Below, one piece after another: positions 3,059 through 51,561 of a stretch of DNA of 64,000 bases. The DNA is taken from positions 1 through 64,000 of the IMG/VR virus record IMGVR_UViG_3300043464_001630. The stretch is one strand, 5' to 3'. This stretch comes from a virus. Each line of letters opens with the position of its first letter. The stretch's first letter is position 1. Made by a program: the position numbers and the translations under genes. The notes under the pieces are model-generated. The model made no database searches. It saw nothing but the letters and a program-made list of their open reading frames with translations, and was not told where the DNA came from.

Positions 3059-3958
3059 ATGAATGATTCTTTATTAATCTGGGAAGCTTATCAAAATAGT
3101 ATATCTAATATAGTATATCACGTATCTAGAAAGAAATTTGACGACATCTATGATTGGAGTCATTTTACAAAAAACATACATGCTGCAAAAGATATTATCA
3201 ATACTGATAAATCAGAAGGAAAATATGTCGAAGGCAGCACGTATTATGTTTATAAATATAAAATGAATCCAGATTTAAAACTCATGAGAAGTGTGGATAT
3301 TCATTCCGAACATGTTCCTCAATGGGGTAATTCTGGTAGATCAAATGATTGGAGTAAACATATTCAAGGTATGTTTTATCTTCAGCAAACAGAAGATACA
3401 CAATTTAGAACCTATGTAACAAACGCAGTTTTAAATGAATTAAAAAGTAGATACGACAATAATCCAGAGAGAAAAAAATTATTTGAATTAATTTTAAATT
3501 TTCTTAACAAGAATCCTAAATATATTAAAATCCCAGAAAGCCAAGGAATGGACTCTCATAAGGCTTGGAAACCAGTCCATAATTATTTCATTAAAATTTT
3601 AGATCCAAATAAGACTAAATCCACACGAGAACTCATGAATTTATATAGTACTATGGCGACGATAATAGATTCTCTACAAATGATTCTCATTCGAAACATC
3701 AGTCAAAATGATTATGATAATGTTAAGTTGTGGAAAGTTTGGATTTTTGAATCAGACGATGATAATATTCACGGAAATTTTTTTTACGAAAACCAAATTA
3801 ATAAAAAGTCGTTTATTAATAATCTAATAACGTCATATTATGATGGCGTTGTATATAATAATGAAGTTGAAGGTGGAGGAGATTCTTATATTTTATTTCA
3901 TCCTAAGAGGGATCTACAATTAATAAGCAGAGAGATTTTACAAAATTCAGAAAATTAA
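3059..3958 (+). CDS. LIWEAY-tagged ART-like protein
   Basis: It begins with MNDSLLIWEAYQNS, the N-terminal peptide shared by eleven proteins here. The next segment, NIVYHVSRKKFDDI followed by NIHAAKDII, matches the start of the 852 protein and resembles ADP-ribosyltransferase-fold proteins. The remaining 200 residues are not recognised. It has a late box and no SD, and the 3960 gene follows after one base, so the two are probably co-transcribed. Packaging in the virion is inferred from the tag. Confidence 0.65.
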   Translation: MNDSLLIWEAYQNSISNIVYHVSRKKFDDIYDWSHFTKNIHAAKDIINTDKSEGKYVEGSTYYVYKYKMNPDLKLMRSVDIHSEHVPQWGNSGRSNDWSKHIQGMFYLQQTEDTQFRTYVTNAVLNELKSRYDNNPERKKLFELILNFLNKNPKYIKIPESQGMDSHKAWKPVHNYFIKILDPNKTKSTRELMNLYSTMATIIDSLQMILIRNISQNDYDNVKLWKVWIFESDDDNIHGNFFYENQINKKSFINNLITSYYDGVVYNNEVEGGGDSYILFHPKRDLQLISREILQNSEN

Positions 3959-3959
3959 T

Positions 3960-5054
3960 ATGATAAAGAGAGATAAACAGATTATATGGGAAAGATATTT
4001 AGAGATCCTAAAAGAATCTCGTGTGGAAAGGTATTTGAATATGTATAATAAATTATTCAAAATATTTCCAGATGCAAAAGCCCCAGATAGTGTATATAAT
4101 CCAGCTAATTGCGAATTAGATTCTAGTCATTATAACCATACAAGAACTAGAAATTTAATAGAATTTAATTTTTGTTTAAAAAATGTAATAGATAAACTTA
4201 GAAGAGATGATATTATTCAGTGGTATATTAAAAAAACAATAAATGAAACAATTTGTACAATAATTGATAAAAAAATTTTTAATATTCGTTTAAAAACTAG
4301 AGCAAGTGGTTCAAATATAGAATATTTTTTAAAAACCGAACACCCAGAAATTTATGAAGAGTTCATTAAATTACGTGATCTTAAAACGAGTTTTTTTGAT
4401 ATAGAGTATTACAGTGCAATAGAAGTTGGTACGGAAACTTTATTGGAAAAATTAGAACATTATATTGCGTTAAATATACAAGACATAAACAACTTCCGAT
4501 TTGTTAATCAATCTATCGAAGATGTTTTAGAAAAATTTCAAACAATTGAACGTGAATGGCTTAAATCTATTAATAGTGTAATGGATATTACGGATGATTT
4601 AAAAAGCAAAAGAGTTAAGACACTATTAAAAATTGACGAAAACAACGAATGGCAAATAATAGATAGTTCATTTTGTACAAAAGAAGGAAAAGCAATGGGT
4701 CATTGTGGGAATAATGTAACTGGTGGAATTGATGATAAAAACACGAAGTTACTCAGTTATCGAACTATAACTCATAAAGGAGGTAAAGTTATAGCTAAAC
4801 CACATTTAACTTTTATTTATCATTTAAATGATATGTCTTTGTCTGAAAGAAAAGGAGCACAAAACGATAAACCAGTTGAGAAATATCACGAAGCTATATT
4901 AAAATTGTTAATGTTAAAAAAAGATAATGATTTCTTTATTAAGAAACTTAAAAACGAAGGATATTTGCCGCAAAATAATTTCGAAATATCTGATTTATCC
5001 GAAAATAACAGAAAGATTCTTGAACAAAATAGACCGGATTTATTCGAGGAATAA
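3960..5054 (+). CDS. tag-like N-terminus protein with EGKAMGHC motif
   Basis: The 364-residue protein opens MIKRDKQIIWERYLEIL, a divergent form of the shared tag that keeps I-W-E-x-Y. Near residue 240 it has FCTKEGKAMGHCGNN, like the EG-x-x-M-x-HC motif of PcfJ-like plasmid and phage proteins, followed by a conserved-looking HLTFIYHL. It has no promoter of its own and follows the 3059 gene by one base. Its role is unknown. Confidence 0.6.
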   Translation: MIKRDKQIIWERYLEILKESRVERYLNMYNKLFKIFPDAKAPDSVYNPANCELDSSHYNHTRTRNLIEFNFCLKNVIDKLRRDDIIQWYIKKTINETICTIIDKKIFNIRLKTRASGSNIEYFLKTEHPEIYEEFIKLRDLKTSFFDIEYYSAIEVGTETLLEKLEHYIALNIQDINNFRFVNQSIEDVLEKFQTIEREWLKSINSVMDITDDLKSKRVKTLLKIDENNEWQIIDSSFCTKEGKAMGHCGNNVTGGIDDKNTKLLSYRTITHKGGKVIAKPHLTFIYHLNDMSLSERKGAQNDKPVEKYHEAILKLLMLKKDNDFFIKKLKNEGYLPQNNFEISDLSENNRKILEQNRPDLFEE

Positions 5055-5064
5055 AAATTATAAA

Positions 5065-5070
5065 TAAATA
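5065..5070 (+). promoter_or_regulatory. late promoter box
   Basis: TAAATA, 5 nt, then the ATG at 5076. Confidence 0.55.
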
Positions 5071-5075
5071 ATCGT

Positions 5076-5240
5076 ATGAAGCAAGAATGGCTCGAATTTT
5101 TAAAAGAACAAGATCCCGAATTATATCTACAAGCAAAGAGTTATATCGAAAAACTAGAATCCGAATTAGAAGAAAAGAAGATTATAGTTGAAAGATACCA
5201 AAATCTCATAGCATGTAACGGATTTTTTGATGAGAAATAG
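5076..5240 (+). CDS. small coiled-coil protein
   Basis: A 54-residue, charged, helix-prone protein (KSYIEKLESELEEKK region) with a late box and no SD. No family is recognised. It ends just before the promoter of the split tRNA-Asn. Confidence 0.65.
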   Translation: MKQEWLEFLKEQDPELYLQAKSYIEKLESELEEKKIIVERYQNLIACNGFFDEK

Positions 5241-5268
5241 TTGACAAATTAGGGATATGTGGTAAATT
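5241..5268 (+). promoter_or_regulatory. promoter of the split tRNA-Asn
   Basis: TTGACA (5241-5246), 16 nt ending in TGTGG, then TAAATT (5263-5268). Spacing and extended -10 match the promoter at 1311. Confidence 0.65.
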
Positions 5269-5314
5269 AGTTGTGTAAGTGAAAGCTTACTTGTTCTTTG
5301 AATAGATAAAAAAA

Positions 5315-5577
5315 TCTCCTTTAGCATAGCTGGAAATGCGCCGTCCTGTTTTTTTTTATAAATGGCAGCTTATAGAAGTAATTCTATTTGAAAAATTCCG
5401 CTAAGTCGGTGAACGCTGAAACGCCAACGCCGAGCTAGCAGATCGCAAGATCGGGCAAGTGTAGAGACTTTACACGGAACATCCTTATGGGATGAAGACA
5501 AAGTCCATTCCACAGGAAATAAAACTTGTGGCTTTAAAGTAAGACGAAAAAGCAAGGTTCAAATCCTTGAGGGAGAG
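5315..5577 (+). tRNA. tRNA-Asn(GUU) interrupted by a group I intron
   Basis: The exons are 5315-5349 and 5540-5577. Acceptor TCTCCTT pairs with AGGGAGA, the D stem is GCAT/ATGC, and the T arm is CAAGG-TTCAAAT-CCTTG. Splicing gives the loop CTGTTAA, anticodon GUU, and the discriminator base is G, as expected for tRNA-Asn. The anticodon stem CCGTC/GACGA has one C-A mismatch at its base. CCA is not encoded. Confidence 0.85.
5350..5539 (+). other. group I intron in tRNA-Asn
   Basis: The 190-nt intron follows exon end CUGU, which pairs with GCAG at 5374-5379 (U-G splice site), and it ends in G. P7 strands GACTT (5466-5470) and AAGTC (5501-5505) pair. CGGTGAACG (5407) and CCAACGCCGAG (5424) are identical to the tRNA(CAU) intron, so the two are related. 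No protein is encoded inside. Confidence 0.8.
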
Positions 5578-5595
5578 CTTCTATTTGATTATCAA

Positions 5596-6555
5596 CTACT
5601 TACATAAATTTCTTTCTTTTAGTATTTTCTTATAAATTAATTTTAGATCCGGTACGGTATCAAAATCTATCCATAAGCATTTGTAATTATTTTTATTACA
5701 ATATTCTTCTAATGCTTTCTTTTTATGTGGTATGTGTAAATTGTATTTATGATTAGACTTTGATGTCCATTTTTGTTTAATCTCTACTATATGTGTTTGG
5801 TTATTAATATAACATATAAAATCTGGGTTGTATGTTTTATTTTTAATTCCGTCATTGTAAATTAATATATTTTTAAATCTTTCTATTGATACTGCATTTA
5901 GTTTGTCTATTAAATAGATTAATCCTGCTTTCTCTAAATTAGAATCTACTTCTATTGAAGTATTTTTATATGTAAAATGTTCTCTAGGTGTGGAGAAATT
6001 TCCATTCTTTTCTAAATATTTTTGTCTTTGTATGGAAATACTTAAAAATTTACAAGCTTCGCTACAAGTTTTTCGCTTTTTTTCTTTTGTACTATAAAAT
6101 TGTTTAGAACATACGGAACATACGTATTCTTGATTTGTATATTTTGAATATGTTTTACCTATATTGTTTATCCTTAGATGCTTAGTTGATTCGTATTTCT
6201 TTAATAAAGATTCCGAAGTTTTCTTTTTTGTTTCTTCTGTTATTATTCTGTTGGAATTATTAAATTTAGCTGAACAAGAACTAGAACAAAAGTAATTGTA
6301 AGTTTTTCCTTCTTTTAATTTCATTCTTTTATCTGCTGACTTTTCCAAAAACTTATCATATCCGATAACAATATTACATTGTTTACAGTGTTCTGGAGAT
6401 TCTAGATATTTTAATGTATTCTCTTCCTTTTGTTTTTTCCCGCGTTCTTTTATAAGAATAATATCCAAACCACTTCTTTTTACATGATGTGCTTTGTGTC
6501 CCTGTAAAGCCATTTTTTTATCAAACTCTTTATTACATATTTCGCATTTATACAT
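5596..6555 (-). CDS. zinc-finger PD-(D/E)XK homing-endonuclease-like protein
   Basis: This 319-residue protein begins with a C2H2-like finger (YKCEICNKEF ... HKAHH). More Cys pairs follow (CKQCN, CSSSC, CSVCSKQF, CSEAC). The nuclease core is YNPDFICY then HIVEIKQKW near residue 240-260. It is convergent with the split tRNA-Asn, 18 bases away, mirroring the 2125 gene at the other split tRNA. It probably acts as a freestanding homing endonuclease; the target is unknown. Confidence 0.7.
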   Translation of the reverse strand: MYKCEICNKEFDKKMALQGHKAHHVKRSGLDIILIKERGKKQKEENTLKYLESPEHCKQCNIVIGYDKFLEKSADKRMKLKEGKTYNYFCSSSCSAKFNNSNRIITEETKKKTSESLLKKYESTKHLRINNIGKTYSKYTNQEYVCSVCSKQFYSTKEKKRKTCSEACKFLSISIQRQKYLEKNGNFSTPREHFTYKNTSIEVDSNLEKAGLIYLIDKLNAVSIERFKNILIYNDGIKNKTYNPDFICYINNQTHIVEIKQKWTSKSNHKYNLHIPHKKKALEEYCNKNNYKCLWIDFDTVPDLKLIYKKILKERNLCK

Positions 6556-6562
6556 ACATTAT

Positions 6563-6568
6563 TATTTA
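6563..6568 (-). promoter_or_regulatory. late promoter box (7-nt spacing)
   Basis: TAAATA on the minus strand, 7 nt before the ATG of the 5596-6555 gene; the spacing is longer than usual. Confidence 0.4.
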
Positions 6569-6607
6569 GCTTCAAAACTTATTTAAAGAGCCTTTTAATT
6601 TTTCTCC

Positions 6608-6635
6608 TTGACTTCTTCACCACATATGATAAATT
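6608..6635 (+). promoter_or_regulatory. promoter of the tRNA-Tyr-like RNA
   Basis: TTGACT (6608-6613), 16 nt, then TAAATT (6630-6635), ending 17 bases before the tRNA-like element. Confidence 0.5.
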
Positions 6636-6652
6636 ATTGTAGTTAATTAAAT

Positions 6653-6740
6653 GCATCGGTATACTGCTAAATACGCAGCTTGGACTGTAAATCCAATATC
6701 CTCTAGGATTGGTTAGGAGAGTTACCTAAACGGTGCACCA
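6653..6740 (+). tRNA. tRNA-Tyr(GUA)-shaped RNA with non-canonical D and T loops
   Basis: The geometry is that of a bacterial tRNA-Tyr: acceptor GCATCGG/ACGGTGC (6 pairs plus G-A), D stem CTGC/GCAG, anticodon arm TTGGA-CTGTAAA-TCCAA, long variable arm ATCC-TCTA-GGAT, T stem TTAGG/CCTAA with a 7-nt loop, A73 and an encoded CCA. However, the D loop lacks GG, the linker before the D stem is 4 nt, and the T loop is AGAGTTA rather than TTCRANT. It may be a diverged tRNA or a mimic. Confidence 0.6.
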
Positions 6741-6781
6741 TTAACTTCTTTATATTCAACAACTTACATACATTCGCCATA

Positions 6782-6994
6782 ATGTACCCAATCCACAGAA
6801 TCGACGAAGCACATCTCTACCGTGTTTTTAAAAATAACGGAATGCGTGTATTAGATTTTCTGGTATATTTCAGTCATCCAATCGTCCGCCGAAATTTCGG
6901 TCTCGAAAATGTTGACAGAGAAGACGGTCTTATTATTTTCGAAATAAACGATCAGAAGAAGTTCTTTTTAAAGTGTATAAAGTATGGATTCTAG
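6782..6994 (+). CDS. small protein, KYG C-terminal family
   Basis: A 70-residue protein whose end, INDQKKFFLKCIKYGF, matches a module shared by about 19 small proteins in this window. The N-terminal half (MYPIHRIDEAHLY) is specific to this copy. It is isolated from the other family members and followed by a terminator. Function unknown. Confidence 0.65.
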   Translation: MYPIHRIDEAHLYRVFKNNGMRVLDFLVYFSHPIVRRNFGLENVDREDGLIIFEINDQKKFFLKCIKYGF

Positions 6995-7077
6995 AAACTT
7001 TCAGTAACCACAACCCCACTGGTATATAGGTCTTGTTATGATTGGAATGTAATAACATAGAAATCCTGCTGAAAACT

Positions 7078-7109
7078 AGCCACACATATTAATTTATGTG
7101 TGGCTTTTC
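7078..7109 (+). terminator. rho-independent terminator
   Basis: GCCACACATA and TATGTGTGGC form a perfect stem around a short A/T loop, followed by TTTTCTGTT. It separates the 6782 gene from the DUF1501 gene. Confidence 0.8.
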
Positions 7110-7112
7110 TGT

Positions 7113-7118
7113 TAAATA
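7113..7118 (+). promoter_or_regulatory. late promoter box
   Basis: TAAATA, 5 nt, then the ATG at 7124. This fixes the start over an in-frame GTG at 7100. Confidence 0.6.
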
Positions 7119-7123
7119 ATAAC

Positions 7124-8395
7124 ATGAATCGTAGAGATTTCATTTACACTGGGCTTGTAGGTGGATTAGGATTATCAATGGGTGACATCCTAAAATTACA
7201 AGCAGAATCCTCCTTGACTCCTAAAGCTCAGTCTGTTATTCATATCTTTTTACCGGGGGGTGCGGCATCACATGAAACGTTTGATCCACATCCACTTGCT
7301 CCTTCTGAGTATAGAGGCCCATTAAAAGCTATTCCTACTTCAGTAGTAGGACTACAATTCTCTGAATACTTACAGAAAACGGCAAAAATTGCAGATAAGC
7401 TCACAGTAGTACATTCCATGACACACGGAGAAGCCGCACACGAACGTGGGGTTACTTCTATGTTCACTGGCTATCGTCCATCTCCAGCATTAGAATATCC
7501 ATCATTTGGTTCTGTAATATCTAATCAATTAGGAGATAGAAATAATCTACCAGCATATGTTTGTATTCCACAGAAGATTGGTAACAATGGTAACGATCCA
7601 GCAGATAGTGGGTACTTATCGAAAGCATACGGCCCTTTTAGTTTAGGTTCTGATCCCGCCAACCTTGGATTTAAGGTTCGTGATTTAAATGTAGAAGTAG
7701 GATCAGAACGATTCGAAAGACGTAAATCTATTTTAGACACAGTAGATAGTCATTTTCGTTATTTAGAATCTAGTGATAACTTAGCAGCAATGGATACTTT
7801 CTATCAAAAGGCATTTGATTTAATATCTTCGCCAAAAGCTAAAGAAGCGTTTGCCTTGGATAAAGAACCCCAAGTGATGCGTGAAGCATACGGAATGAAC
7901 CAAGCAGGTCAGAGATTGTTAATGGCTCGTAGATTAGTAGAAGCAGGTGTAAGATTTGTTTCCGTAACTTATGGTGGATGGGATATGCATTCGGGGATTG
8001 CCAACGGAATAGGTAAACAACTACCCTCATTTGATCAGGCTTATGCAACACTCATTAATGATTTAGATCAGAGAGGAATGTTAGATTCAACACTAGTTAT
8101 GATCTCTTCTGAATTTGGTAGAACTCCGAAGATTAACAAAGATGCAGGGCGTGATCATTGGCCTAGAGTATTCTCTGTAGTGTTTGCTGGTGGTGGTTTT
8201 AAACGTGGTTATGTTTACGGTTCTTCTGATGCCACAGGAAGTGATGTAGAAAGTAATCCATTAACAGTAGAAAACCTAGCGGCTACAATGTATAATCAAT
8301 TAGGTATTGATCCAGAAACAAAACTCATGGCGGCAGGTGGAAGACCATCAGCTATTGTAAAAGATGGTACTGTAGTTAAAGATTTGTTAGTATAA
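7124..8395 (+). CDS. DUF1501 protein with twin-arginine-type signal
   Basis: The 423-residue protein opens MNRRDFIYTGLVGGLGLSM, a twin-arginine-like export signal. It continues with DUF1501 hallmarks: FLPGGAASHETFDPHP, THGEAAHERG, VSVTYGGWDMHS, SEFGRTP and GRDHWP. DUF1501 proteins belong to the sulfatase/alkaline phosphatase superfamily and are very common in Planctomycetota; their substrate is mostly unknown. A second copy lies at 54244. The late box suggests expression with virion genes. A planctomycete origin is inference. Confidence 0.88.
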   Translation: MNRRDFIYTGLVGGLGLSMGDILKLQAESSLTPKAQSVIHIFLPGGAASHETFDPHPLAPSEYRGPLKAIPTSVVGLQFSEYLQKTAKIADKLTVVHSMTHGEAAHERGVTSMFTGYRPSPALEYPSFGSVISNQLGDRNNLPAYVCIPQKIGNNGNDPADSGYLSKAYGPFSLGSDPANLGFKVRDLNVEVGSERFERRKSILDTVDSHFRYLESSDNLAAMDTFYQKAFDLISSPKAKEAFALDKEPQVMREAYGMNQAGQRLLMARRLVEAGVRFVSVTYGGWDMHSGIANGIGKQLPSFDQAYATLINDLDQRGMLDSTLVMISSEFGRTPKINKDAGRDHWPRVFSVVFAGGGFKRGYVYGSSDATGSDVESNPLTVENLAATMYNQLGIDPETKLMAAGGRPSAIVKDGTVVKDLLV

Positions 8396-8403: not shown

Positions 8404-9162
8404 ATGAATGATGATGATTTAATATTTGAAGCTTATCAAAATATATACGAAAGTGTAACTTTCAGTGTAGATGGGGGTAATCTATTTAATGTCGATAACA
8501 TTAATAATATCAATGATCTTGGTACTGCATTGCTTTATGGAGACAGAGATATAAAGGGAAGTTCTATTACTGAATTTATTAAATCCAATTTATCCGAACA
8601 AGAGTTTGAAGAATGGAAAAATAATAAAATATATGAATTTATAACAATGGATGGTTCAGAATTTGAAGCAGCAGAAGGAAATATAAATTTTTATACAGTT
8701 GGATTTCCGGAAAAAATAATACCTAAAGTTATATCTTTTATTAAGTATTTTATAGGTGAATACAACTTCAAGCTAACTTCAGAACCATATAAGGAGAGAT
8801 CAAATTTACATGAATCTGATGTTATTAGATTCCCAGTTCAAATAGTAACAAACAAGGAATCCGAAAATATACCAGAAGTAAATTTATCTAATAGAAACGC
8901 ATCTATTATTTTAATTAATATATTAAAATATCCCGAATCTGTTTTAGAAGATCATCAAATAAATTCAAGAGAATTATTAATGAAAATAGAAAACATAGAA
9001 GACAACGAAAAAAAGTTAAAATCTTATGTAGTAAAAAACGTAAATGACCGATTTACGGTTCTTGGATTAAGTGAAGAAAGAATTAAACGAATTTTATTTG
9101 ATTTAAAAAAATTAGCTCAATACGCGGTTGATAATCATTTCACTTATATAAAATTCGGTTAA
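8404..9162 (+). CDS. LIWEAY-tagged protein of unknown function
   Basis: It starts MNDDDLIFEAYQNIYES, the shared tag with F in place of W. The other 235 residues are acidic and AT-rich in codon use and match no family I know. A late box precedes it and there is no SD. Virion packaging is inferred from the tag. Confidence 0.6.
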   Translation: MNDDDLIFEAYQNIYESVTFSVDGGNLFNVDNINNINDLGTALLYGDRDIKGSSITEFIKSNLSEQEFEEWKNNKIYEFITMDGSEFEAAEGNINFYTVGFPEKIIPKVISFIKYFIGEYNFKLTSEPYKERSNLHESDVIRFPVQIVTNKESENIPEVNLSNRNASIILINILKYPESVLEDHQINSRELLMKIENIEDNEKKLKSYVVKNVNDRFTVLGLSEERIKRILFDLKKLAQYAVDNHFTYIKFG

Positions 9163-10173: not shown

Positions 10174-10776
10174 GTGAGACAAAATTATATTAAGATTTCT
10201 AAGCTAGCTAAAGATCTAGGAGTAACTAAACAAACTCTTTGGAACTGGAAATATGCTGGTGAAGTTGATTTTGTTAAAATAGGTGGGTTAAATTGTGTAA
10301 CTAAAGAAACATACAATAATCTATTAGGAATAGAAAACAAGAAAAAAGAATCTGTTGTGATTTATTGTAGGGTTTCTTCGACGGAAAATAAATCTAATAT
10401 AGAAACACAAAAACAAAGATTGTTAAATTATTGCAATGCAAAAGGTTACAAAGTATCTGATGTGATACAAGAGTTTGGTTCTGGTATCAACGATAAGAGA
10501 CCAAAACTCGAAAAATTATTAAAACAGCAAAATTTTACAAAACTAGTAGTAGAACATAAAGATCGTCTAACAAGAGTAGGATTTAATTATATCAATACAC
10601 TGCTAAACTTCAATCATATTGAGATTGAAGTAGTTAATTCTGTTGATGATGATAGAACTGATTTAATACAAGATTTCATATCAATTATTACATCTTATTG
10701 TGCTAGAATTTACGGCAACAGAAGATCAAAAAGAAAAACTGAACAATTAATAAAGGAGCTTGAATCCAATGAGTAG
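10174..10776 (+). CDS. tnpA: IS607-family serine recombinase TnpA
   Basis: A 200-residue transposase with a GTG start. Residues 5-50 form the MerR-like DNA-binding helix-turn-helix (ISKLAKDLGVTKQTLWNW), and the recombinase domain starts with VVIYCRVSST, whose Ser is the expected nucleophile. VVEHKDRLTRVGF is the conserved E-x-x-DRL-x-R segment. It moves the element through a circular intermediate with little target specificity. Its end overlaps tnpB. Confidence 0.95.
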   Translation: MRQNYIKISKLAKDLGVTKQTLWNWKYAGEVDFVKIGGLNCVTKETYNNLLGIENKKKESVVIYCRVSSTENKSNIETQKQRLLNYCNAKGYKVSDVIQEFGSGINDKRPKLEKLLKQQNFTKLVVEHKDRLTRVGFNYINTLLNFNHIEIEVVNSVDDDRTDLIQDFISIITSYCARIYGNRRSKRKTEQLIKELESNE

Positions 10777-12355
10777 ATGCACAAAGAGTTATTCTTTCTA
10801 CTCGAAAGATCTTAACATAGGCAAATTCAATCTCTTTTTGAAGAAAGCCGAAGCAGTCAGAGATTATAAGAATGCTTTATCTGTCGAAATTTCATCTAAT
10901 CTCTTGAAGTACACTGAAGTTTCTAAGTTTGATTTCCTTAAAATGTTTGGTACGAAAACTAATTATTTGAATCCTAGCTCATTAATGAGAGGAAACGAAA
11001 TACAAAAAGCTGTAGCGGATGTGTTTGAAGCTTATCAAAATAAAATAACACAAATTAAACAAAAAATGTCTTTCTTTGTTCAAAAAGGAAAAGAGGTAGA
11101 ATTTTACAAAAGAAACACAAAAAATAATAAAAAAGGTGATGTTAGAAGTTATGAAATAAAAACTAAAAATACTCCATTGACAAAAACAATCACATTTCTA
11201 TCTCGTTATGGTTCCGAAAACACACTAGATTATGTCAATAAAAGAGCGAATCAAAATGATGACAAACAAGATTTCTATAAGACACTAAAAATACATATTC
11301 AAAAGTTTGGCTTAGAAAGATTGTCGAAACTTGCTTACAGCAAAAGAACACAAGTTCTAAATAAGTATAATTATCCAATCACATTCACCTCTCTATCTTA
11401 TCGTTCTGCTCTTCAGACGAACGATCCTTTGATTCAAAATTCCAAGAACAAAACATTTTCAAATGGAACTATTTCAATACCAAGCTTTAATGGAAAACAT
11501 ATGTTTGTTCCGACTACATTCAATGTAAAACATCATGGTCATTTGAATCAATATAAATCAAAAGAGTATATAATTTGTATCGAACAAAAGCGAAAAAGAA
11601 TCAGACTGATTACTACAAAAGAAACAGAAGAAACTATTTCTCCAGAAGGAATAAATTATTTAGGTGTTGACACCAACGTCAAACATAATCTATTTGCTAC
11701 TTCAGATGGAATGAATATTGACATGGACAGAGATTTGTTTCATGGTTATATTGCTTTTCTAAAGAAATACCAAGACAAGAAAGAACATACTTCTGGAGAA
11801 GATCAACAATTTGAACTATGGCAAGAACGTGTTCAGTGTATGCTCAAAAAGAAAGCTAGAGAGTTAGTTGATGTGGCTATAGCTTCTGGTAAGAATCATA
11901 TCATCATGGAAGATCTTGGTAACTTTGGTAAATCTTACACTAAATCAGAAGAGTTCGAAGGATTCAAATATTCTAGATTAACACGATTACTCAATCTTTC
12001 TTCTCTAAACAAAATTGTTAAAGGCATTTGTAAGAAGCTTGGTGTTAGACTAACTCTCATTCCTTCTCATTATACATCTCAGTGGTGCTTTGACTGTGGA
12101 CACATAGACAAAGCTAACAGAACCACCCAAGAAATTTTCCAATGTGTTTGTTGCAATGTAACAGCAAATTCAGACTTTCATTCTTCACGAGCCATCCTTA
12201 GGATAGGTTCTTCAGACGTTCTGAAGAGCAATATGCTCGTGATGGATAAATCATTCGATTGGATTCCTAAGAAACTCTCAAAAGGTTTCATAAGAAAACA
12301 ATTGGAAGAAATAATTCCTAAAACAACTTTTCAGTTGAATTGTCAAACTTTATAG
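10769..12355 (+). CDS. tnpB: TnpB RNA-guided endonuclease of the IS607 element
   Basis: ATG at 10769 is preferred over an in-frame TTG at 10760 because AAAGGAG at 10752-10758 is placed for it. The protein (528 residues) has the RuvC-like nuclease motifs GVDTNVKHNLFA (Asp), IIMEDLGNFGKS (Glu) and NSDFHSSRAI (Asp), with a zinc ribbon CFDCGH ... CVCC between the last two. All catalytic residues are present. TnpB proteins are guided by an omega RNA from the element's 3' end and favour its retention. That RNA should overlap the tnpB end. Confidence 0.95.
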   Translation: MSRCTKSYSFYSKDLNIGKFNLFLKKAEAVRDYKNALSVEISSNLLKYTEVSKFDFLKMFGTKTNYLNPSSLMRGNEIQKAVADVFEAYQNKITQIKQKMSFFVQKGKEVEFYKRNTKNNKKGDVRSYEIKTKNTPLTKTITFLSRYGSENTLDYVNKRANQNDDKQDFYKTLKIHIQKFGLERLSKLAYSKRTQVLNKYNYPITFTSLSYRSALQTNDPLIQNSKNKTFSNGTISIPSFNGKHMFVPTTFNVKHHGHLNQYKSKEYIICIEQKRKRIRLITTKETEETISPEGINYLGVDTNVKHNLFATSDGMNIDMDRDLFHGYIAFLKKYQDKKEHTSGEDQQFELWQERVQCMLKKKARELVDVAIASGKNHIIMEDLGNFGKSYTKSEEFEGFKYSRLTRLLNLSSLNKIVKGICKKLGVRLTLIPSHYTSQWCFDCGHIDKANRTTQEIFQCVCCNVTANSDFHSSRAILRIGSSDVLKSNMLVMDKSFDWIPKKLSKGFIRKQLEEIIPKTTFQLNCQTL

Positions 12356-14269: not shown

Positions 14270-15502
14270 ATGAATGATTGTGAATTGATCTGGGAATCTT
14301 ATTTAAATAAGATTTTATTAGAGAATGACGGAATTACTGATTTAACCTCAGATTACGTTAATAAGTTAAAGCACGATTACGAAGTTTTAATTAAAAACAT
14401 TAATAATAAATTAACTCCAGAAAACGCTTCAAAACTAAAAAATGCGTTTGATATTTCAGCAGACGATTACGACAACAAAACCACATTAATTTATAAATGG
14501 GGCGATAAAAAACGCGAAGATACTGAATATGTAAGAATTCCTATGTGGAATTTACATATAAACTTAGGAAGAATGCAGAATATTTTAGGAGAATATAGCA
14601 AAAATAAAGACGAATCAAGTTTAAAGAAATTAATTAATTTAAAAAAATCTACCACAAAAATAGCTAATGATGTATGGAATAAATTAAATCTGTTTATTTC
14701 TAATAATCCAAACATGGATTTGAAATTAAATCCAGAACAATACGTTTTAAAATTAGAAGGAATTCCTTTCACATTTATAGGTTTAACTGAAAAAAACAAA
14801 TCAAGGTTACCCAGATTAAAATATTATGTAAACAAATACATAGAAAGAGCTAAAAAAGTAGCTCCTTTAATGATAAAATATAGCTTACCAGTAGAAATTC
14901 ATATGGAATTTGATACTCATGATAGTGGTGATGCTGCTGGTCTGTACTATTTCAATAAAATAATATTAACTGCATGGGCTTCTAAAAGAGAAGACGAACG
15001 TTCATTCGTCAAAACATTAGCACATGAAATGGGTCATCATATTTATAAATCTTTATCAGAAAATAGTAGGCAATTTTGGTACGATTTCATAATCAGCGAT
15101 AAAATAGAAATAGATGTAGAAGAAATCATTAATATGATGCATGAAAATGAACTTCCTCGTCATTTCGAAAATCGAATGAAAAATGAAAATCCAATGTTAT
15201 ACATTCAAGCAGAAACTTTATTCCATACAAATAATTCAATGAATGTGTATGATTTGCAATCATTGATTGATGCATACAAAGAAAATAGAATACCGAAAAG
15301 CGTAGTCGTTCCAAACACACCAATTACTGGATATGCTGCTAAAAATTCAGAAGAAGCATTTTGCGAGGCATTAGGAATGTATGTTGCTTACGGAAATAGA
15401 GCAGTACCCGAGAAAATAAAAAACATTCTGAATGTAATCCTAGCACCAAGTGAAAAATTCCGACTTGGAGAATCCACAATTCTCCACAAAAAAGTTGACT
15501 AG
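14270..15502 (+). CDS. LIWESY-tagged zinc metalloprotease-like protein
   Basis: The 410-residue protein opens with the shared tag MNDCELIWESYLNKILLE. Near residue 250 it has the zincin motif KTLAHEMGHHIYKSL, and about 120 residues later SEEAFCEALGMYVAYG, which could supply the third zinc ligand. This makes it a probable metallopeptidase. If the tag directs packaging, the enzyme would be delivered to the host at infection; that part is inferred. Confidence 0.72.
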   Translation: MNDCELIWESYLNKILLENDGITDLTSDYVNKLKHDYEVLIKNINNKLTPENASKLKNAFDISADDYDNKTTLIYKWGDKKREDTEYVRIPMWNLHINLGRMQNILGEYSKNKDESSLKKLINLKKSTTKIANDVWNKLNLFISNNPNMDLKLNPEQYVLKLEGIPFTFIGLTEKNKSRLPRLKYYVNKYIERAKKVAPLMIKYSLPVEIHMEFDTHDSGDAAGLYYFNKIILTAWASKREDERSFVKTLAHEMGHHIYKSLSENSRQFWYDFIISDKIEIDVEEIINMMHENELPRHFENRMKNENPMLYIQAETLFHTNNSMNVYDLQSLIDAYKENRIPKSVVVPNTPITGYAAKNSEEAFCEALGMYVAYGNRAVPEKIKNILNVILAPSEKFRLGESTILHKKVD

Positions 15503-34447: not shown

Positions 34448-34819
34448 ATGAACGACGAACAATTGATTTGGGAGGCATATGAAAACAATAATCAGTTTTT
34501 ATATCATGCCACATACAAGCCACATTTGAAGAAGATAATGCAGTATGGCTTGGGAGGATCGCCAAAGATTAGAAAGAATTGGGAGGATTCTAAACAAGGC
34601 GTGGTGTATTTAGCTTATGATGCAAATGTAGCAGAATCTTATGCTGAAAGTTCTGATGATGTACCAGAATCCTATTTAGATAATATCATCATATTAAGAA
34701 TTGATACTTCTAAACTAGATAGAAATAATCTAAAGAGAGATCAGAATGTAATTGACGGAGAAGATACATTAGAGTATCACGGGATTATACCACCGGACGC
34801 AATAGAAAGAATTAAATAA
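34448..34819 (+). CDS. LIWEAY-tagged ART-fold protein
   Basis: 123 residues: the tag MNDEQLIWEAYENN, then FLYHATYKPHLKKIMQYGLGG, GVVYLAYDANVAESYA, IIILRIDTSKLD and YHGIIPPDAIERI. This is the layout of small ADP-ribosyltransferase-like or RNA phosphotransferase-like phage domains. The domain follows the tag directly, so the tag is clearly a separate module. Confidence 0.78.
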   Translation: MNDEQLIWEAYENNNQFLYHATYKPHLKKIMQYGLGGSPKIRKNWEDSKQGVVYLAYDANVAESYAESSDDVPESYLDNIIILRIDTSKLDRNNLKRDQNVIDGEDTLEYHGIIPPDAIERIK

Positions 34820-38290: not shown

Positions 38291-38725
38291 ATGAATGACG
38301 AAGAACTGATATGGGAAGCTTATAAAGCACAGGAAGATATAGAACTAGGTATTGATGACCTTGTGCTTCGTAAACGTAAGCTCAGAGGAGAAGGAATCAG
38401 TTACGTCATTTACGATAAAAAACAAACACCTACGAAGATGCTAGGACATCTCAGTGGCTTTGAGGATAAGTTTGGTAAGCACGATGGAATGTTCCATCTA
38501 TACAAGACTGAACTGACCGAAGCGACTCGTAATGATCCACAGTACCAGAACCGTGGAATATACAGAATTGCTGTACAAAAGGTAGCTAACCTTTATCCGA
38601 ATGGATTATATGTGAGTCAATTCGAAGCATCGCCACAATTAAGGAATTCATTAAAACGAATGAGTACATATGAGTTCTTAAATGATGATCGTTATATAGA
38701 TGTGTTACATATCAAGCCAGAATAA
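38291..38725 (+). CDS. LIWEAY-tagged protein, GNAT-like C-domain
   Basis: 144 residues: tag MNDEELIWEAYKAQED, then a domain with NRGIYRIAVQKVANLYPNG and SPQLRNSLKRM that resembles the later strands and helices of GNAT acetyltransferases. The acetyl-CoA loop is not clear, so the fold call is tentative. Confidence 0.58.
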   Translation: MNDEELIWEAYKAQEDIELGIDDLVLRKRKLRGEGISYVIYDKKQTPTKMLGHLSGFEDKFGKHDGMFHLYKTELTEATRNDPQYQNRGIYRIAVQKVANLYPNGLYVSQFEASPQLRNSLKRMSTYEFLNDDRYIDVLHIKPE

Positions 38726-38734: not shown

Positions 38735-39301
38735 ATGAACGACGAAGAATTGATATGGGATAATTATTACAAATCTATTTTAACCGAGGGATTTGATAGC
38801 GATAACATAAAAGTTTTGGATAGATTTTTAAGAACTTATTATTCCGAAAGCCGCGTTGTTCTCACAGGAGAAGAAGAAATAATAAATTTTAATATAAAAC
38901 AAGTCGAAAGACATCCAAACTTTAATCCAAAGCCACAAGGATTATGGTACAGCAAAGGAAACGAATGGGCTGATTTTCTAAAATACGATCCAGCTAATTG
39001 GGCAGACACATATAACAATGTATTTCTTTTAGATATTGATCTCAAGAAGATACTAAAAATAGATTCTTATGAAAAGCTTCTTTCGTTTAGCAGGAAGTAT
39101 TCAGACGGCAAGGAATATGTCGATTGGGAAGCAGTTGAGAATTTAGGATATCATGGAGTAGAAATTATACCGTACCAAGGAGAAGCCAGACATAACATAC
39201 CTTGGTATTACAGATGGGATGTTGCTTCTGGTTGCATATGGAATACCGATTGTATTTTAAAATCTACGAAGGTTTATCCAAGAACAAAGAACAAAAGGTA
39301 A
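38735..39301 (+). CDS. LIWDNY-tagged protein with KPxGLW-type domain
   Basis: 188 residues: tag MNDEELIWDNYYKSILTEG, then KPQGLWYSKGNEWADF, VFLLDIDLKKILKI and YHGVEIIPYQGEARH. The KP-x-GLW-x-S...W layout occurs in toxin-like phage domains related to ADP-ribosyltransferases; the link is by eye only. Confidence 0.6.
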   Translation: MNDEELIWDNYYKSILTEGFDSDNIKVLDRFLRTYYSESRVVLTGEEEIINFNIKQVERHPNFNPKPQGLWYSKGNEWADFLKYDPANWADTYNNVFLLDIDLKKILKIDSYEKLLSFSRKYSDGKEYVDWEAVENLGYHGVEIIPYQGEARHNIPWYYRWDVASGCIWNTDCILKSTKVYPRTKNKR

Positions 39302-39509: not shown

Positions 39510-39971
39510 ATGAATGACGAAGAATTGATTTGGGAGGCATACAATAATATTGGAATCCATATTAAGGACAAGGTTAAGGGTAAGGTGTATGACTTCACTG
39601 GAAAGATTCTCAGGGGGGAGAAGACCATAGAAACTCGTCCAGCCCCAACCCTGAGTCCGTATATCGGTCAACGAGTGGGAATCATCAGCACTGGCACCAG
39701 CAAGGGCACACCCGCGAAATCTTACCTTGTGGGGTCTGCGATCATTGGCGAACCAATAGTCTACCACAACGAGGAAGAGTTCGACAGGGACTACGACAAG
39801 CACCTAGTGGGCAAGGATGATAAAGATTTCTATATTAAGACAGGGAAGGTAAAGTACGGCTATCCTATGCTCGATGTCAGACGCATGGAACCCGTGGAAC
39901 TGACAGCACCTACTGACCGGAAAGCGGCAGGCTTTAGCATAATTAGAAGACGAATAGATTACGAATTGTAA
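39510..39971 (+). CDS. LIWEAY-tagged ASCH/PUA-like domain protein
   Basis: 153 residues: tag MNDEELIWEAYNNIG, then ILRGEKTIETRPAPTLSPYIG, RVGIISTGTSKGTPA and YLVGSAIIGEP, the K-x-x-E-x-R and G-x-x-x-x-I pattern of ASCH domains, which bind RNA or nucleotides. From about 39590 to 39950 the DNA is clearly more GC-rich than the tag and its surroundings, which suggests that the domain was acquired separately and joined to the tag. Confidence 0.72.
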   Translation: MNDEELIWEAYNNIGIHIKDKVKGKVYDFTGKILRGEKTIETRPAPTLSPYIGQRVGIISTGTSKGTPAKSYLVGSAIIGEPIVYHNEEEFDRDYDKHLVGKDDKDFYIKTGKVKYGYPMLDVRRMEPVELTAPTDRKAAGFSIIRRRIDYEL

Positions 39972-40667: not shown

Positions 40668-41090
40668 ATGAACGACGAGCGGTTGATATGGGAAGCCTAC
40701 AAAAGTAGAGAGGTAGAAACTATGGAATTTCCTATGTTATCTAAACCTAATGGAGTGTCGTATCGAGGCAAACCAGATTGGAAAAAATTTAAAGTAAATG
40801 GCTATTACAGGGATGGTGATGTATTAAGATACATATATTCACAACACAAAGAATTCGAAGACGACCACCGAGTAAAAAGAATTTATAAATTAATATCAAT
40901 AGATCCAAATAAATTAGAACCCAGCGAATGGGAAATAGATGATTATAAAGTAGAAGATTTGTCTAAGTCTAATGAACCATATCCTCCAATCGTAATCAAT
41001 AAAAACAAATCTATCGTAGATGGCGGACACAGATTAGAAGCAGCAAAAGTTAGAGGAGATAAAGAAATTCTAGTATTCTTACAACAATAA
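40668..41090 (+). CDS. LIWEAY-tagged ParB-like domain protein
   Basis: 140 residues: tag MNDERLIWEAYKSRE, a middle part, then YPPIVINKNKSIVDGGHRLE near the C-terminus, the D-G-x-H-R signature of the ParB/Srx fold. The domain is short and lacks DNA-binding additions. Function unknown; packaging inferred from the tag. Confidence 0.7.
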   Translation: MNDERLIWEAYKSREVETMEFPMLSKPNGVSYRGKPDWKKFKVNGYYRDGDVLRYIYSQHKEFEDDHRVKRIYKLISIDPNKLEPSEWEIDDYKVEDLSKSNEPYPPIVINKNKSIVDGGHRLEAAKVRGDKEILVFLQQ

Positions 41091-46475: not shown

Positions 46476-46536
46476 AAGAAACAAGTGGTTTGTGAAGGTT
46501 TATTTTCACTTTTTTTCTGAGCTTTTACAATTCCAG

Positions 46537-46566: not shown

Positions 46567-46615
46567 TTGAAAATAATAGTTCTGTCAATCCCTTTTTTTG
46601 CAGAAAAAAAGAAAA

Positions 46616-46648
46616 GGTCATACCCTCCCGTCACGCCGATAGGTTAGT
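46616..46648 (+). repeat. ACCCTCCC...AGGTTAG element 7
   Basis: GGTCATACCCTCCCGTCA, then GCCGATAGGTTAGTC. Confidence 0.65.
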
Positions 46649-47262: not shown

Positions 47263-47274
47263 CTAATTAAGATT

Positions 47275-47607
47275 ATGAAAATAACAAATGCCGTTTCCGC
47301 CGCTAATTCTAGTGATTTTGTTTATTCGGAAAATGTTAGGTACGTTTTTATCTGTAAAATGATCGAATCCCGAATCTCTTCACGACTTTTTCTGATTGAT
47401 GATTCGAAAGAACAAAAGTTACAGGATATAATTAATGGCGATTGGCGCAAAACCTTGGGATGTATTGATGAGCAGATTAAAAATCTAGAAAAAGAGCGGA
47501 TTCCTTTGGAGAAATGGCTCCGCGACAACGGAGCAAACGACGACGATTTAGACCATAGTTTGTGGTGCGACGACACAGATTGGAGAGCATGGGTAAATGA
47601 GGATTAG
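47275..47607 (+). CDS. hypothetical protein
   Basis: 110 residues, acidic C-terminus (DHSLWCDDTDWRAW), no family recognised. It follows the structured GC-rich stretch. Confidence 0.63.
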   Translation: MKITNAVSAANSSDFVYSENVRYVFICKMIESRISSRLFLIDDSKEQKLQDIINGDWRKTLGCIDEQIKNLEKERIPLEKWLRDNGANDDDLDHSLWCDDTDWRAWVNED

Positions 47608-47616
47608 GTATTGTGT

Positions 47617-47730
47617 TCAGCCCCTTACACAATTCGGTGTAGGGGGCGCGGTTATAAGTGTTTTGCTTTCAGCCTTTTGTCAGTCCCGCTGTAGGGCACT
47701 GAGTTCACAAAGGGTTGAATAACAGTACAC
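47617..47730 (+). promoter_or_regulatory. structured leader of the helicase gene
   Basis: Two hairpins in the gap before 47741: GCCCCTTACAC/GGTGTAGGGGGC, and a longer one pairing CAGCCTTTTGT with ACAAAGGGTTG around AGTCCC/GGGCACT. The first may terminate the previous transcript. Confidence 0.5.
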
Positions 47731-47740
47731 TAATTAAATT

Positions 47741-49273
47741 ATGACCCCATCAAAGTATCAAACCGCTGCAATCAACTGGATGACAAGCGGAAGCGGAAAC
47801 GCAGTTATTAGCGCAGTAGCAGGAAGCGGAAAGACGACTCTTTTGCTCATGATGCTGAAAGAGTTGTTCAAAGAAGGAAAGTGTCCCTCAGTGGCTTGCC
47901 TAGTGTTTGCGAAGAAAAACCAAGTGGAAATGGACTATAAGCTCAAAAGGGAAGGGATTCCCGCCGAGTCTTATACGGTTCACTCGCTTTGCCTCAGGGC
48001 ATATAGGAAGTTTGTTCCTAACTTCAAACTCGAAGGAAGGAAAGTGAGACTAATCCTCGAAGAAAACCTATCGTCTGAGGACTTTAGTCTCTATGCAACC
48101 GCTTGCGAAAAACTGGTTAAGTTCGCAAAGGACGACGGGGCCGGAATTTTTTGGCCCATTGCGGATGCTGCTCAATGGCAGCGCCTTATGGCGCATCATG
48201 ATGTCGAACTAGAGAACGATGCCACGATGGATCGGGCGATTGAGATTTGTCAGAAAACCTTAGAAGCGAACAATAAAGAGAAAATCTTTATAGATTTCTC
48301 TGATATGATTTATCTTACTCTGTTGAACGGGTACACTTTACCGAAGTTTGACTGGGTACTGGTGGACGAAGCGCAGGATTTAAGTCCCCTTAGACAAGCG
48401 GTTTGCTTTGCTTTGAAGGGAGAAAACACTCGCTTCGTTTTCCCCGGCGATAGAATCCAAGCAGTGTTTGGGTTCACTGGCGCGGATGCGGAGTCTCTGG
48501 ACAATATCAAATCCGCTTACAACGCTACAGAGCTACCGTTGTCAGTGTGTTACCGCTGTTCAAGCTCAGTGGTGAACCACGCAAAGCAATGGAATCCCGT
48601 AATTGAATCAGCACCAAACGCTGAAACGGGAAGCGTTACCGAAATGCCCTACACCGCGCTGACGGAAAAGCCTGAGTCTCTTAACCTTTCGTACAAAGAC
48701 GCGATCCTTTGCCGGACTAATGCGCCTTTGATGCGCACCGCGTTTTCTCTGATCAAAAAGGGAATCCCGTGCAGAATTGAGGGGCGGGACATCGCTCAGG
48801 GGCTCATTAACGTAATCGGAAAATGGAAAGTTAAGACACTGGACGCTCTCGAAAACCGCCTTTCCGATTACTTGGATCGCGAAACGCAAAAGGCTCAGAC
48901 TAAGGGTAATGAGGCTTTGGTAGGCGTCATAACCGATAAGGTGGATTGCATTAGGGCTTGCATGGAAAAGTGCTACCTCGAAGGCAAGACCCGCGTTGAC
49001 GACCTCAAAGCATTGATTGATAGCATGTTCTCGAACGCGGACGATAAGACAACCCGCCGCGACTTGCTCACCCTTTGCTCTGTCCACAAATCAAAGGGGC
49101 TGGAATGGGAACGAGTCTTTCTACTTGGGCGTCAAGACTTTATGCCTTCCAAGTGGGCAAAGAAAGACTGGATGAAGGTTCAGGAAACTAACCTTATCTA
49201 TGTAGCTATCACCCGCGCCAAGAGAGACTTAGTCGAAGTCACCGGAGTGTCTGAGTACCTCAAAGGCAAGTAG
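47741..49273 (+). CDS. UvrD/Rep-type superfamily 1 DNA helicase
   Basis: 510 residues with all SF1A motifs in order: Q-like SKYQTAAINWM, Walker A SAVAGSGKTT, LVDEAQDLS (II), FPGDRIQAVFGFTGAD (III), YRCSSSVV (IV), SVHKSKGLEWERVFLLG (V) and LIYVAITRAKRDLVEV (VI). Shorter than cellular UvrD, since the accessory 1B/2B domains are reduced. It probably acts in phage replication or recombination, similar in role to T4 Dda; that role is inferred. GC-rich compared with the rest of the window. Confidence 0.95.
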   Translation: MTPSKYQTAAINWMTSGSGNAVISAVAGSGKTTLLLMMLKELFKEGKCPSVACLVFAKKNQVEMDYKLKREGIPAESYTVHSLCLRAYRKFVPNFKLEGRKVRLILEENLSSEDFSLYATACEKLVKFAKDDGAGIFWPIADAAQWQRLMAHHDVELENDATMDRAIEICQKTLEANNKEKIFIDFSDMIYLTLLNGYTLPKFDWVLVDEAQDLSPLRQAVCFALKGENTRFVFPGDRIQAVFGFTGADAESLDNIKSAYNATELPLSVCYRCSSSVVNHAKQWNPVIESAPNAETGSVTEMPYTALTEKPESLNLSYKDAILCRTNAPLMRTAFSLIKKGIPCRIEGRDIAQGLINVIGKWKVKTLDALENRLSDYLDRETQKAQTKGNEALVGVITDKVDCIRACMEKCYLEGKTRVDDLKALIDSMFSNADDKTTRRDLLTLCSVHKSKGLEWERVFLLGRQDFMPSKWAKKDWMKVQETNLIYVAITRAKRDLVEVTGVSEYLKGK

Positions 49274-49284
49274 CCTTCAGAGTT

Positions 49285-49320
49285 GCGGCTCAGGGGAGTT
49301 CAATCCTCTCCTGAGCCCTT
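49285..49320 (+). terminator. hairpin after the helicase gene
   Basis: GGCTCAGGGGAG pairs with CTCTCCTGAGCC; only a short T run follows. Confidence 0.65.
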
Positions 49321-49522
49321 CGCGTTTAAATGCCCTTTAAAAGGCTCCACCCCCTTCGTCAGTATCTCCACCGCCCCCCGCCCCCTATAGGCCATTAGAA
49401 ACCCCCGTAGCGTTCCGCCATTAGGGGATCATGATTGTCCCCTCAGTTCCGTTCACACAATAAACTCACGTTGGTAATAGATTCGCGTTCACATTACACA
49501 CTCAACCCACTCTAATAAACTC

Positions 49523-49840
49523 ATGAGAGACACACACTTCCCTAACTTTGTTCACCTTATCCTTTCCAATAATCCTTCAGCCTATGCCAAGCAAGTGCTT
49601 ATTAGAGAGTCTAGTCTGTACTACAGAGACTTCTATTCCTCTTGCTACGTCCTGACTCTGGACGAAAAAGACTTCGCCATTAACAGAGCGGTGGAAAGGT
49701 TCTCTGAGTATGTAAACCTTTCGAAATCAACGCTAGACTCACTGGACGCGGTTAAGACTGCTGTCGCTCAGGTGCTTCAAGAATCTTATACTGAGTCTAT
49801 TCAAAGAACTTTCAAAGCTAAGGGGTTGGCTATGGTATAG
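49523..49840 (+). CDS. hypothetical protein
   Basis: 105 residues, helical, with no recognised family. About 250 bases of C-rich, gene-free DNA separate it from the helicase. Confidence 0.63.
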   Translation: MRDTHFPNFVHLILSNNPSAYAKQVLIRESSLYYRDFYSSCYVLTLDEKDFAINRAVERFSEYVNLSKSTLDSLDAVKTAVAQVLQESYTESIQRTFKAKGLAMV

Positions 49841-50160
49841 GCGACCTCTCCTAATACGGGGCTCCCTTTTTCGGAAGGGGGTTCCCGTTTCAGGAAGCGT
49901 GCCACCTAGCGAAAAAGAAAGTTTTATTTTCTACTAAAGTTTTTGGGAGAACGGGGCTCTTCTATGCAGGTCGAGCATTTTAATTTGCGGCTTGCGTAAG
50001 TTGCATGACTGGTCGGGTGAGGGGGCATTGCCAAAATTTTTTTTGCAAATTTCTGGAAATTTTACTAAAGGCGATTTTTTAATATACAATCCTCTATTAT
50101 TTCCAGATCTTTTTTTGATATTTTAATTTTATATTTTTGTTGAGTAAAATATACGAAATT
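49841..50160. other. gene-free stretch with terminator hairpin
   Basis: A strong hairpin at 49854-49886 (ACGGG ... CTCCCTT / AAGGGGG ... CCCGT) ends the 49523 unit. The rest is A/T-rich with one decayed CTAAAG (49918) and an AATCCTCTATTA copy (50090). No gene is seen. Confidence 0.5.
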
Positions 50161-50541
50161 CTAATTTTCCATTCTACTACTCCATCCGTCTACGTCGTCG
50201 GTTAATCTTGGGATATATCCGCCTATGCTTTGTGCGAACTGTTCTCCTTCGTATGATCGTCTGGAAGAATGTTCTGGTACTGGTTGATCGTTTTGTTCTG
50301 CCCATTCTGTGGCAGTTTCCCATATATGCGTAGCTACTCCTTGTCTCCTATACGGTTCGCCTACATATAACCTTTCTACTTCTCCATCATCTTTAGACCA
50401 TTCAATAAATCCCACGGCTCCCTTCTTATTAAAGAAATCTATTCTGTTATTATATTCGGTTTCTGAATGTTTAAATCTTAACGTATCCCAGTCTAATGCT
50501 ATTTTTTTATAACTCTCCCATATCATTTGTTCGTCATTCAT
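50161..50541 (-). CDS. LIWESY-type tagged GNAT acetyltransferase
   Basis: 126 residues: tag MNDEQMIWESYKKIA, then a GNAT core, VGFIEWSKDDGEVERLYVGE, PYRRQGVATHIWETA with the R-x-x-G-x-A acetyl-CoA loop, and QFAQSIGGYIPR. Its substrate is unknown. If the tag targets the head, this enzyme would enter the host with the DNA. Confidence 0.78.
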   Translation of the reverse strand: MNDEQMIWESYKKIALDWDTLRFKHSETEYNNRIDFFNKKGAVGFIEWSKDDGEVERLYVGEPYRRQGVATHIWETATEWAEQNDQPVPEHSSRRSYEGEQFAQSIGGYIPRLTDDVDGWSSRMEN

Positions 50542-50596
50542 AATTTTATTTAACCTTTAAACTATAATAATTTTATTTAACCTTTAAACTATATCG
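50542..50596. repeat. tandem duplication of the late promoter region
   Basis: ATAATTTTATTTAACC and TTTAAACTATA occur twice in tandem, giving two TAAATA boxes on the minus strand upstream of the 50541 gene; the second copy runs to the end of the 50584 gene. Confidence 0.7.
50547..50552 (-). promoter_or_regulatory. late promoter box
   Basis: TAAATA on the minus strand, 5 nt before the ATG at 50541. Confidence 0.55.
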
Positions 50597-51561
50597 TATA
50601 GTATATCACCTATGCAATTTTCTATGGCCGTGTCGATTTGATCAGCTATATATTCTTCGATGTTTATTAGATTTTTTATATTAAAATCAGCGAACCAAGA
50701 TTCCATCTTTTTAAACATCTTTTCGTCTATCATTTGGTTAAAGGTTATTTTTCCGGTTTGCATTAACTGAGCTACTAATTCTTCTTTCATGTCAGATACT
50801 ATTAATTGTTTATTTCTTGCCGAGCCGAATGTAAAAAAGTCCATGTAAAAATTTTCTGGATCTCTATAGTATTTTCCAGCATGTATGTTATTTGTTGTTA
50901 TATTTTTTAAAATTGGATAATCGTATAGGTTTATCGAAGGATCGCCATATATTGATAAGGATTCTTTAAACATGGTATGATAATCTTTGAGTACCTTTCT
51001 TATATTATTATCGATATCTACGTTTTCCCTATGTGCTAGAATAGCATGTCCGCATTTGTGTGATCGTATCCAAGAAGAAAAAGCCATAATACCCGATCTT
51101 TCTTCTTGACCAGAAGGTGTCATTATTACGGTAATTCCGTTTGGACTCGATAATCTCTTTTTTATTGATGGATCTCCTTCTACTAAATTTTGAATATCAG
51201 ATTTGTTTATGATATGTTTGATACCAGAATCGTACTTAGATTCTTTTTCTAAATTAGCATCTATCAGTCTCCATAATAAAGGAGGTTTTCCTTGGGTTTG
51301 TCTTCTGCGGTCTAAGCCTTTTGCCGTTCCGGTTTGTACCGTGGATTTCATCAGTTCTCTGGCTTTTTCGCTGCTCCATGCATTTATATCAGTTTTTCTT
51401 GATTTAGGCTCGTTAATTATTTTTCTTGAATTTTTTTGTACAGGTTTATATTCGGATTTTAATTTATCAGTTATTTCTGGATCGTCGCCCATGAATTCCA
51501 GAGTAGCGGGAACTTCAGATATTAACTTATATCTTTCCCAGATCATTTGTTCGTCATTCAT
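50584..51561 (-). CDS. LIWERY-type tagged protein of unknown function
   Basis: 325 residues: tag MNDEQMIWERYKLISE, a Lys/Arg-rich segment, then a region with MAFSSWIRSHKCGHAILAHR, whose H-x3-GHA-x3-H spacing recalls metal-binding sites. The C-terminal part is helical. No family recognised. Longest unassigned member of the tagged set. Confidence 0.65.
   Translation of the reverse strand: MNDEQMIWERYKLISEVPATLEFMGDDPEITDKLKSEYKPVQKNSRKIINEPKSRKTDINAWSSEKARELMKSTVQTGTAKGLDRRRQTQGKPPLLWRLIDANLEKESKYDSGIKHIINKSDIQNLVEGDPSIKKRLSSPNGITVIMTPSGQEERSGIMAFSSWIRSHKCGHAILAHRENVDIDNNIRKVLKDYHTMFKESLSIYGDPSINLYDYPILKNITTNNIHAGKYYRDPENFYMDFFTFGSARNKQLIVSDMKEELVAQLMQTGKITFNQMIDEKMFKKMESWFADFNIKNLINIEEYIADQIDTAIENCIGDILYDIV

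Follow-up and report, generated by a model that had tools for sequence, protein, structure and literature searches.

A shared N-terminal peptide on diverse proteins of an uncultured giant T4-like phage as a candidate head-targeting tag

Introduction

Why should eleven proteins with different bodies, encoded within 64,000 bases of viral DNA, begin with nearly the same short peptide? The question is raised by the window analysed here, bases 1-64,000 of the 236,391-bp uncultured virus record IMGVR_UViG_3300043464_001630 (hereafter G000), in which a first-pass annotation had reported this shared N-terminus (the tag) and had read it as a signal that loads effectors into the phage head. The G000 phage is a giant T4-like virus of bacteria, and we consider it likely, from its genes and by analogy with T4, that the tag works as a T4-type capsid-targeting propeptide, one which would load cargo into the head for ejection into the next host.

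Occurrence of the tag in G000 and in relatives

All eleven open reading frames were found to carry the peptide as first reported, and the TAAATA box claimed for every gene except that at 3960 does end 5-6 nucleotides (nt) upstream of the ATG in 10 of the 11. The remaining gene (3960-5054, + strand) has no late box, starts directly after the stop codon of the gene at 3059 and carries a divergent tag, MIKRDKQIIWERY, in place of the MND form; two further variants are IFE in the protein starting at 8404 and IWD in that starting at 38735. The strict tag pattern was defined as [LIMV][IV][WFY][ED]xY starting within the first nine residues, and the 351 predicted proteins of G000 were scanned with it over the whole record. 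The tag was found at this position in 13 of the 351 proteins, with 0.05 expected (tail probability ~6e-28), and internal matches to the pattern amounted to 1 in 68,610 positions. Extension of the motif search to the whole record and to relatives placed the tag outside the window as well, both in G000 and in many relatives' contigs. Clear extra copies in G000 begin the proteins encoded at 66790-67440 (-) and 81633-83222 (-), the latter a PcfJ-like protein with leucine-rich repeats, and looser copies were recorded at 73397-74422 (+), 75365-77521 (-) and 217373-219007 (+).

The conserved unit is the peptide and not the DNA, because third codon positions vary more: across the eleven MND tags, mean entropy is 1.04 bits at codon position 3 and 0.46 and 0.39 bits at positions 1 and 2, respectively. 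The TAAATA box is common to ~77 G000 genes, mostly untagged, and ends exactly 5 nt before the ATG in 53 of them, head genes included; the same 5-nt spacing was seen again in relatives. Shine-Dalgarno-like sites are scarce in G000 (24 of 320 predicted genes), and if TAAATA acts, as it does in T4, as a -10 box, late transcripts would have little or no leader. G000 encodes a gp55-like late sigma factor. Its gene (103528-105030, +, outside the window) is interrupted by an insert of ~330 residues with a weak match to an intein splicing domain (PF14890, E=7e-6, below the Pfam cut-off), and because this insert splits it, the factor, which is the expected activator of the tagged genes, may need protein splicing.

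In uncultured T4-like phages the tag has the consensus M-x2-6-[DE]-x-x-L-I-[FWY]-E-x-Y, stands on many unrelated proteins and lies behind a TAAATA box ~5 nt before the ATG. The strict MND pattern matched one other contig only, and the looser pattern combined with a late box returned more than 100 stretches among the matches listed; 84 relatives' tags were left once near-duplicates were dropped, with bodies falling into ~50 clusters. No isolate phage was hit in a tblastn search with a 20-residue consensus of the tag, and no tag was present in the two thirds of Pelagibacter phage HTVC008M that were scanned. Since strict tags number 13 in G000 and 0-3 in long relatives, the expansion of the tag is special to the G000 lineage.

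Proposed link to the prohead

T4 gp21 cuts after L/I-x-E (PMC9026906), and an S77 prohead protease is encoded in G000 at 72662-73333 (-; PF03420, E=3e-29), as are gp23 at 69427-70983 (-; PF07068, E=2e-88) and a portal protein. Between the S77 and gp23 genes lies the gene for a gp22-like protein, assigned by its position and by its abundance of [LI]xE sites, in which it resembles T4 gp22; the G000 protein begins MATEITKLLKEA and has no tag. Matches of gp23 to isolate phages were all below 60% identity. Of 80 relatives fetched for the gp23 comparison, most have an [LI]xE/A-type site (the slash marks the presumed cut) at the end of the gp23 propeptide, for example CLREAN, CLNEAN or CIQEAN, and some read CFEAN instead. 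The S77 protease is encoded in 9 of 11 large contigs with in-frame tags, as against 1 of 4 control contigs in which the matches were out of frame only. In close relatives the divergent neighbour of the protease gene, ~75 bp away, is a tagged gene of variable body, and in G000 this slot is occupied by 73397-74422.

For comparison with T4, a matrix was built from 72 relatives' tags, with T4 and G000 excluded, and was used to score 263 T4 N-termini. The scaffold gp22 ranked first, IPIII fifth, IPII sixth and gp24 eleventh, so that 4 of 10 gp21 substrates stand among the top eleven (p=3e-4). An early T4 comparison with a hand-picked tag was replaced by this matrix test.

Exchange with internal-protein-like N-termini

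On homologous bodies the tag is exchanged with N-termini of another kind, resembling those of T4 internal proteins (IPs). The body of the tagged protein at 50584-51561 is homologous (E=2e-5) to that of the protein at G000 234506-235279, which begins MNFDKLVKRLTE/AP and is in turn homologous (E ~1e-60) to the protein at 10370-11143 of relative G011, which begins MQSFKQFFTE/AP; all three align at the xE/xP junction. A second family shows the same exchange (L239 and L229 versus L114).

N-termini of this T4-IP-like kind may form a second head tag. Late-box genes with MKFxxLVxxILxE or similar N-termini start at G000 53982, 99994, 202881, 219032, 227553 and 234506; the one inside the window, at 53982-54239 (+), has a late box and tentatively belongs to the second class with MKFDDIVKQILE/D. 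N-terminal LxE is enriched in the late-box genes of G000 (p=3e-5) and also in those of some relatives.

Position of the predicted cleavage site

I-W-E had been proposed as the point of cleavage, and this held in part: the tag fits the [LI]xE rule, but because many tags hold a second [LI]xE downstream, cleavage after IWE is probably not general. Site presence was examined, and LIWE or a second [LI]xE is present in nearly all tags. G000 tags that have no Ala after IWE usually hold a second site a few residues on (ILLE/N, ILTE/G, SLHE/A, ILKE/S, LISE/V), and with one member taken per body cluster, a second [LI]xE is over-represented 2-5 residues past the tag (9.5% versus 1.7% per position). Tags without Ala after IWE tend to make up for it with a second site (p=0.035 in G000, where the test was post hoc, and p=0.02 over all tags).

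In T4, the first ten residues of IPIII are enough for packaging; residues 4 and 7 are important in targeting, residues 8 and 10 in cleavage, and with Asp at position 10 the protein is still targeted but no longer cut (PMC9026906). The tag fits these IPIII rules, because the protein at 38735 has IWD instead of IWE yet retains a second site, ILTE/G.

Tagged proteins and neighbouring genes

The domain labels given in the first-pass annotation fared unevenly. The GNAT label is confirmed for the 126-residue protein at 50161-50541 (-; MNDEQMIWE/SYKKI), with a match to PF00583 above the Pfam cut-off (E=1.7e-8). The metalloprotease label has support for the 410-residue protein at 14270-15502 (+; MNDCELIWESYLNKILLE/N), which has an HExxH motif, as in zinc metalloproteases, and a homologue that covers most of it; alignment to a homologue from a 485-kb phage begins only at residue 30, past the tag. 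ASCH and ParB-like assignments are weak and below cut-off, at E=0.1 for the 153-residue protein at 39510-39971 (+; MNDEELIWE/AYNNI) and E=0.001 for the 140-residue protein at 40668-41090 (+; MNDERLIWE/AYKSR). The ART-like label for the 123-residue protein at 34448-34819 (+; MNDEQLIWE/AYENN) was not confirmed: no family of known function was matched, and searches of Pfam and PDB gave no match, apart from which there was a weak hit to a PHROG without known function.

The 188-residue protein at 38735-39301 (+; MNDEELIWDNYYKSILTE/G), in which Asp replaces Glu and a second site is present, is matched by phrog_8582 (E=4e-12), a family without known function, and by untagged actinobacteriophage proteins, which align only downstream of the tag. 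Structure prediction for this protein and for that at 34448-34819 gave models with AlphaFold predicted local distance difference test scores of 37 and 45, respectively, the latter model being unusable. The 325-residue protein at 50584-51561 (-; MNDEQMIWERYKLISE/VP) has the body, described above, that is homologous to proteins with IP-like N-termini, and the 364-residue protein at 3960-5054 (MIKRDKQIIWERYLEILKE/S) has an untagged homologue in relative G001 (E=5e-18). No function was assigned to the bodies of the 299-residue protein at 3059-3958 (+; MNDSLLIWE/AYQNS; late box 5 nt before the ATG), the 252-residue protein at 8404-9162 (+; MNDDDLIFE/AYQNIYE/S) or the 144-residue protein at 38291-38725 (+; MNDEELIWE/AYKAQ). 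Searches of viral contigs with two of the tagged proteins found no relatives, and the tagged bodies of G000 are mostly accessory, without homologues even in close relatives. One tag appears to be used on at least 13 unrelated cargo proteins, among them zinc protease-like, acetyltransferase, PcfJ-like and, weakly, ParB-like members.

Other genes were noted in the window. Two DUF1501 proteins with N-termini like those of twin-arginine translocation (TAT) substrates are encoded at 7124-8395 and 54244-55608 (Pfam E=3e-114 and 8e-132); they are unusual phage cargo, and similar N-termini occur in relatives G001 and G006. A TnpB-like protein lies among accessory genes at 10760-12355 (Cas12f1-like TNB domain, Pfam E=3e-9; transposase in PHROGs). 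A ClpP-like protease at 60452-61084 (Pfam E=5e-28), labelled head maturation protease in PHROGs and distinct from the S77 enzyme, adjoins ribonucleotide reductase and thymidylate synthase genes.

Discussion

The head-targeting reading proposed for the tag gains good support from the presence of S77 and gp23 in the genome, from the conserved gp23 site, from the exchange with IP-like N-termini and from the matrix ranking. Under it, tagged proteins would be made late, from TAAATA promoters directly before the start codon, and would dock on the prohead core through the M..D..LI[W/F/Y]E.Y N-terminus, as suggested by T4. The S77 protease, encoded beside the gp22-like protein and gp23, would then cut after LIWE/A or at a second [LI]xE, to judge from the conserved sites, and the mature bodies would stay in the head with the DNA, to be ejected into the next host in the manner of T4 IPs and Alt and presumably to act there as effectors.

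Several observations weigh against this account. Two large tag contigs have no S77 gene; they are possibly fragments, and one of them ends in a gp23 piece at its edge and is hence cut off there. In the matrix ranking, T4 IPI, gp23 and gp68 stand low. Once bodies are clustered, a second site no longer compensates significantly for a lack of Ala after IWE (p=0.38), the protein at 50161 has neither feature (IWE/S), and the N-terminal LxE enrichment of late-box genes is missing in some relatives.

The alternative that survives best accepts that the tag loads the prohead and holds that the cargo consists mainly of core, scaffold or DNA-condensing components and not of next-host effectors. The strongest T4 match of the tag is indeed a scaffold protein and not an effector, the tagged gene of close relatives adjoins the protease gene, and relatives have some tagged families of small proteins rich in Ala and Lys. 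We nevertheless hold this alternative to be unlikely, as the G000 bodies include a GNAT enzyme and HExxH protease-like and PcfJ-like proteins, and their accessory character suits effectors better than head parts. Less probable again is that the peptide serves for docking to some other partner, such as a chaperone, a polymerase or another phage complex, with an incidental likeness to a prohead protease site. Short N-terminal helices common to several proteins can be used for docking in many ways, and Ala or Ser after the Glu is absent from some tags; yet a ranking of T4 N-termini made blind to T4 put gp21 substrates on top, the tag changes places with IP-like tags at an xE/xP junction common to both, and it co-occurs with S77 and adjoins the protease gene. 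That the conserved stretch instead acts as DNA or RNA, as part of a longer late promoter or start region, or is a 5' cassette copied recently and without peptide function, is hardly credible, the box ~5 nt before the ATG of most tagged genes notwithstanding, since most box genes are untagged, the peptide is retained across many distant contigs, and synonymous variation at third codon positions largely refutes a DNA-level explanation.

The wider proposal would be that two exchangeable head-address tags serve uncultured T4-like phages of one clade as a general means of loading effectors, in which the address stays fixed and the cargo genes, that in the variable slot next to the head protease among them, turn over freely; towards this we lean with some reserve. 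Ejected effectors are hard to spot from their bodies alone. A recognisable head tag would let candidate injected proteins of many uncultured T4-like phages be listed from sequence, so that, if the proposal is true, the tag alone reads out each phage's candidate ejected proteins; it also predicts exact mature N-termini, which can be checked by mass spectrometry. The T4 principle of a few internal proteins would thereby be widened to 13 or more tagged proteins in a single phage. T4 targeting sequences are already known; what would be new here is that the consensus differs, that there is a second class with which the tag is exchanged, and that one phage tags at least 13 proteins. A search of papers outside subscription journals and preprints gave no match to the literal string LIFEAY.

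Among known systems, head and ejection proteins of SPN3US and phiKZ likewise carry N-terminal propeptides, removed there after x-x-E by a gp21-like protease; those propeptides are mostly longer than 100 residues and are cut at A/S-x-E (PMC5694885), whereas the G000 tag is short and has [LI]-x-E. T4 gp22 (MLKEQLIAE/AQK) has the same LI-x-E/A core at the same distance from the Met, but is a core scaffold cut into many pieces, unlike the diverse cargo tagged in G000. The closest precedent for the G000 tag set is provided by the T-even internal proteins, which are described as highly diverse defence proteins with only the targeting sequence conserved in common (PMC3012670). As in T4 IPII and IPIII (MKTYQEFIAE/A), IPI and the Alt propeptide, a short N-terminal peptide stands on otherwise unrelated, in G000 presumably late, proteins and ends in an [LI]-x-E site for the S77 protease of the head cluster; the G000 tag differs from these in its consensus, MND..LIWE.Y, in often having a second site further on, and in number, with at least 13 tagged proteins, the predicted cargo of the head, as against four in T4 (IPI-III and Alt).

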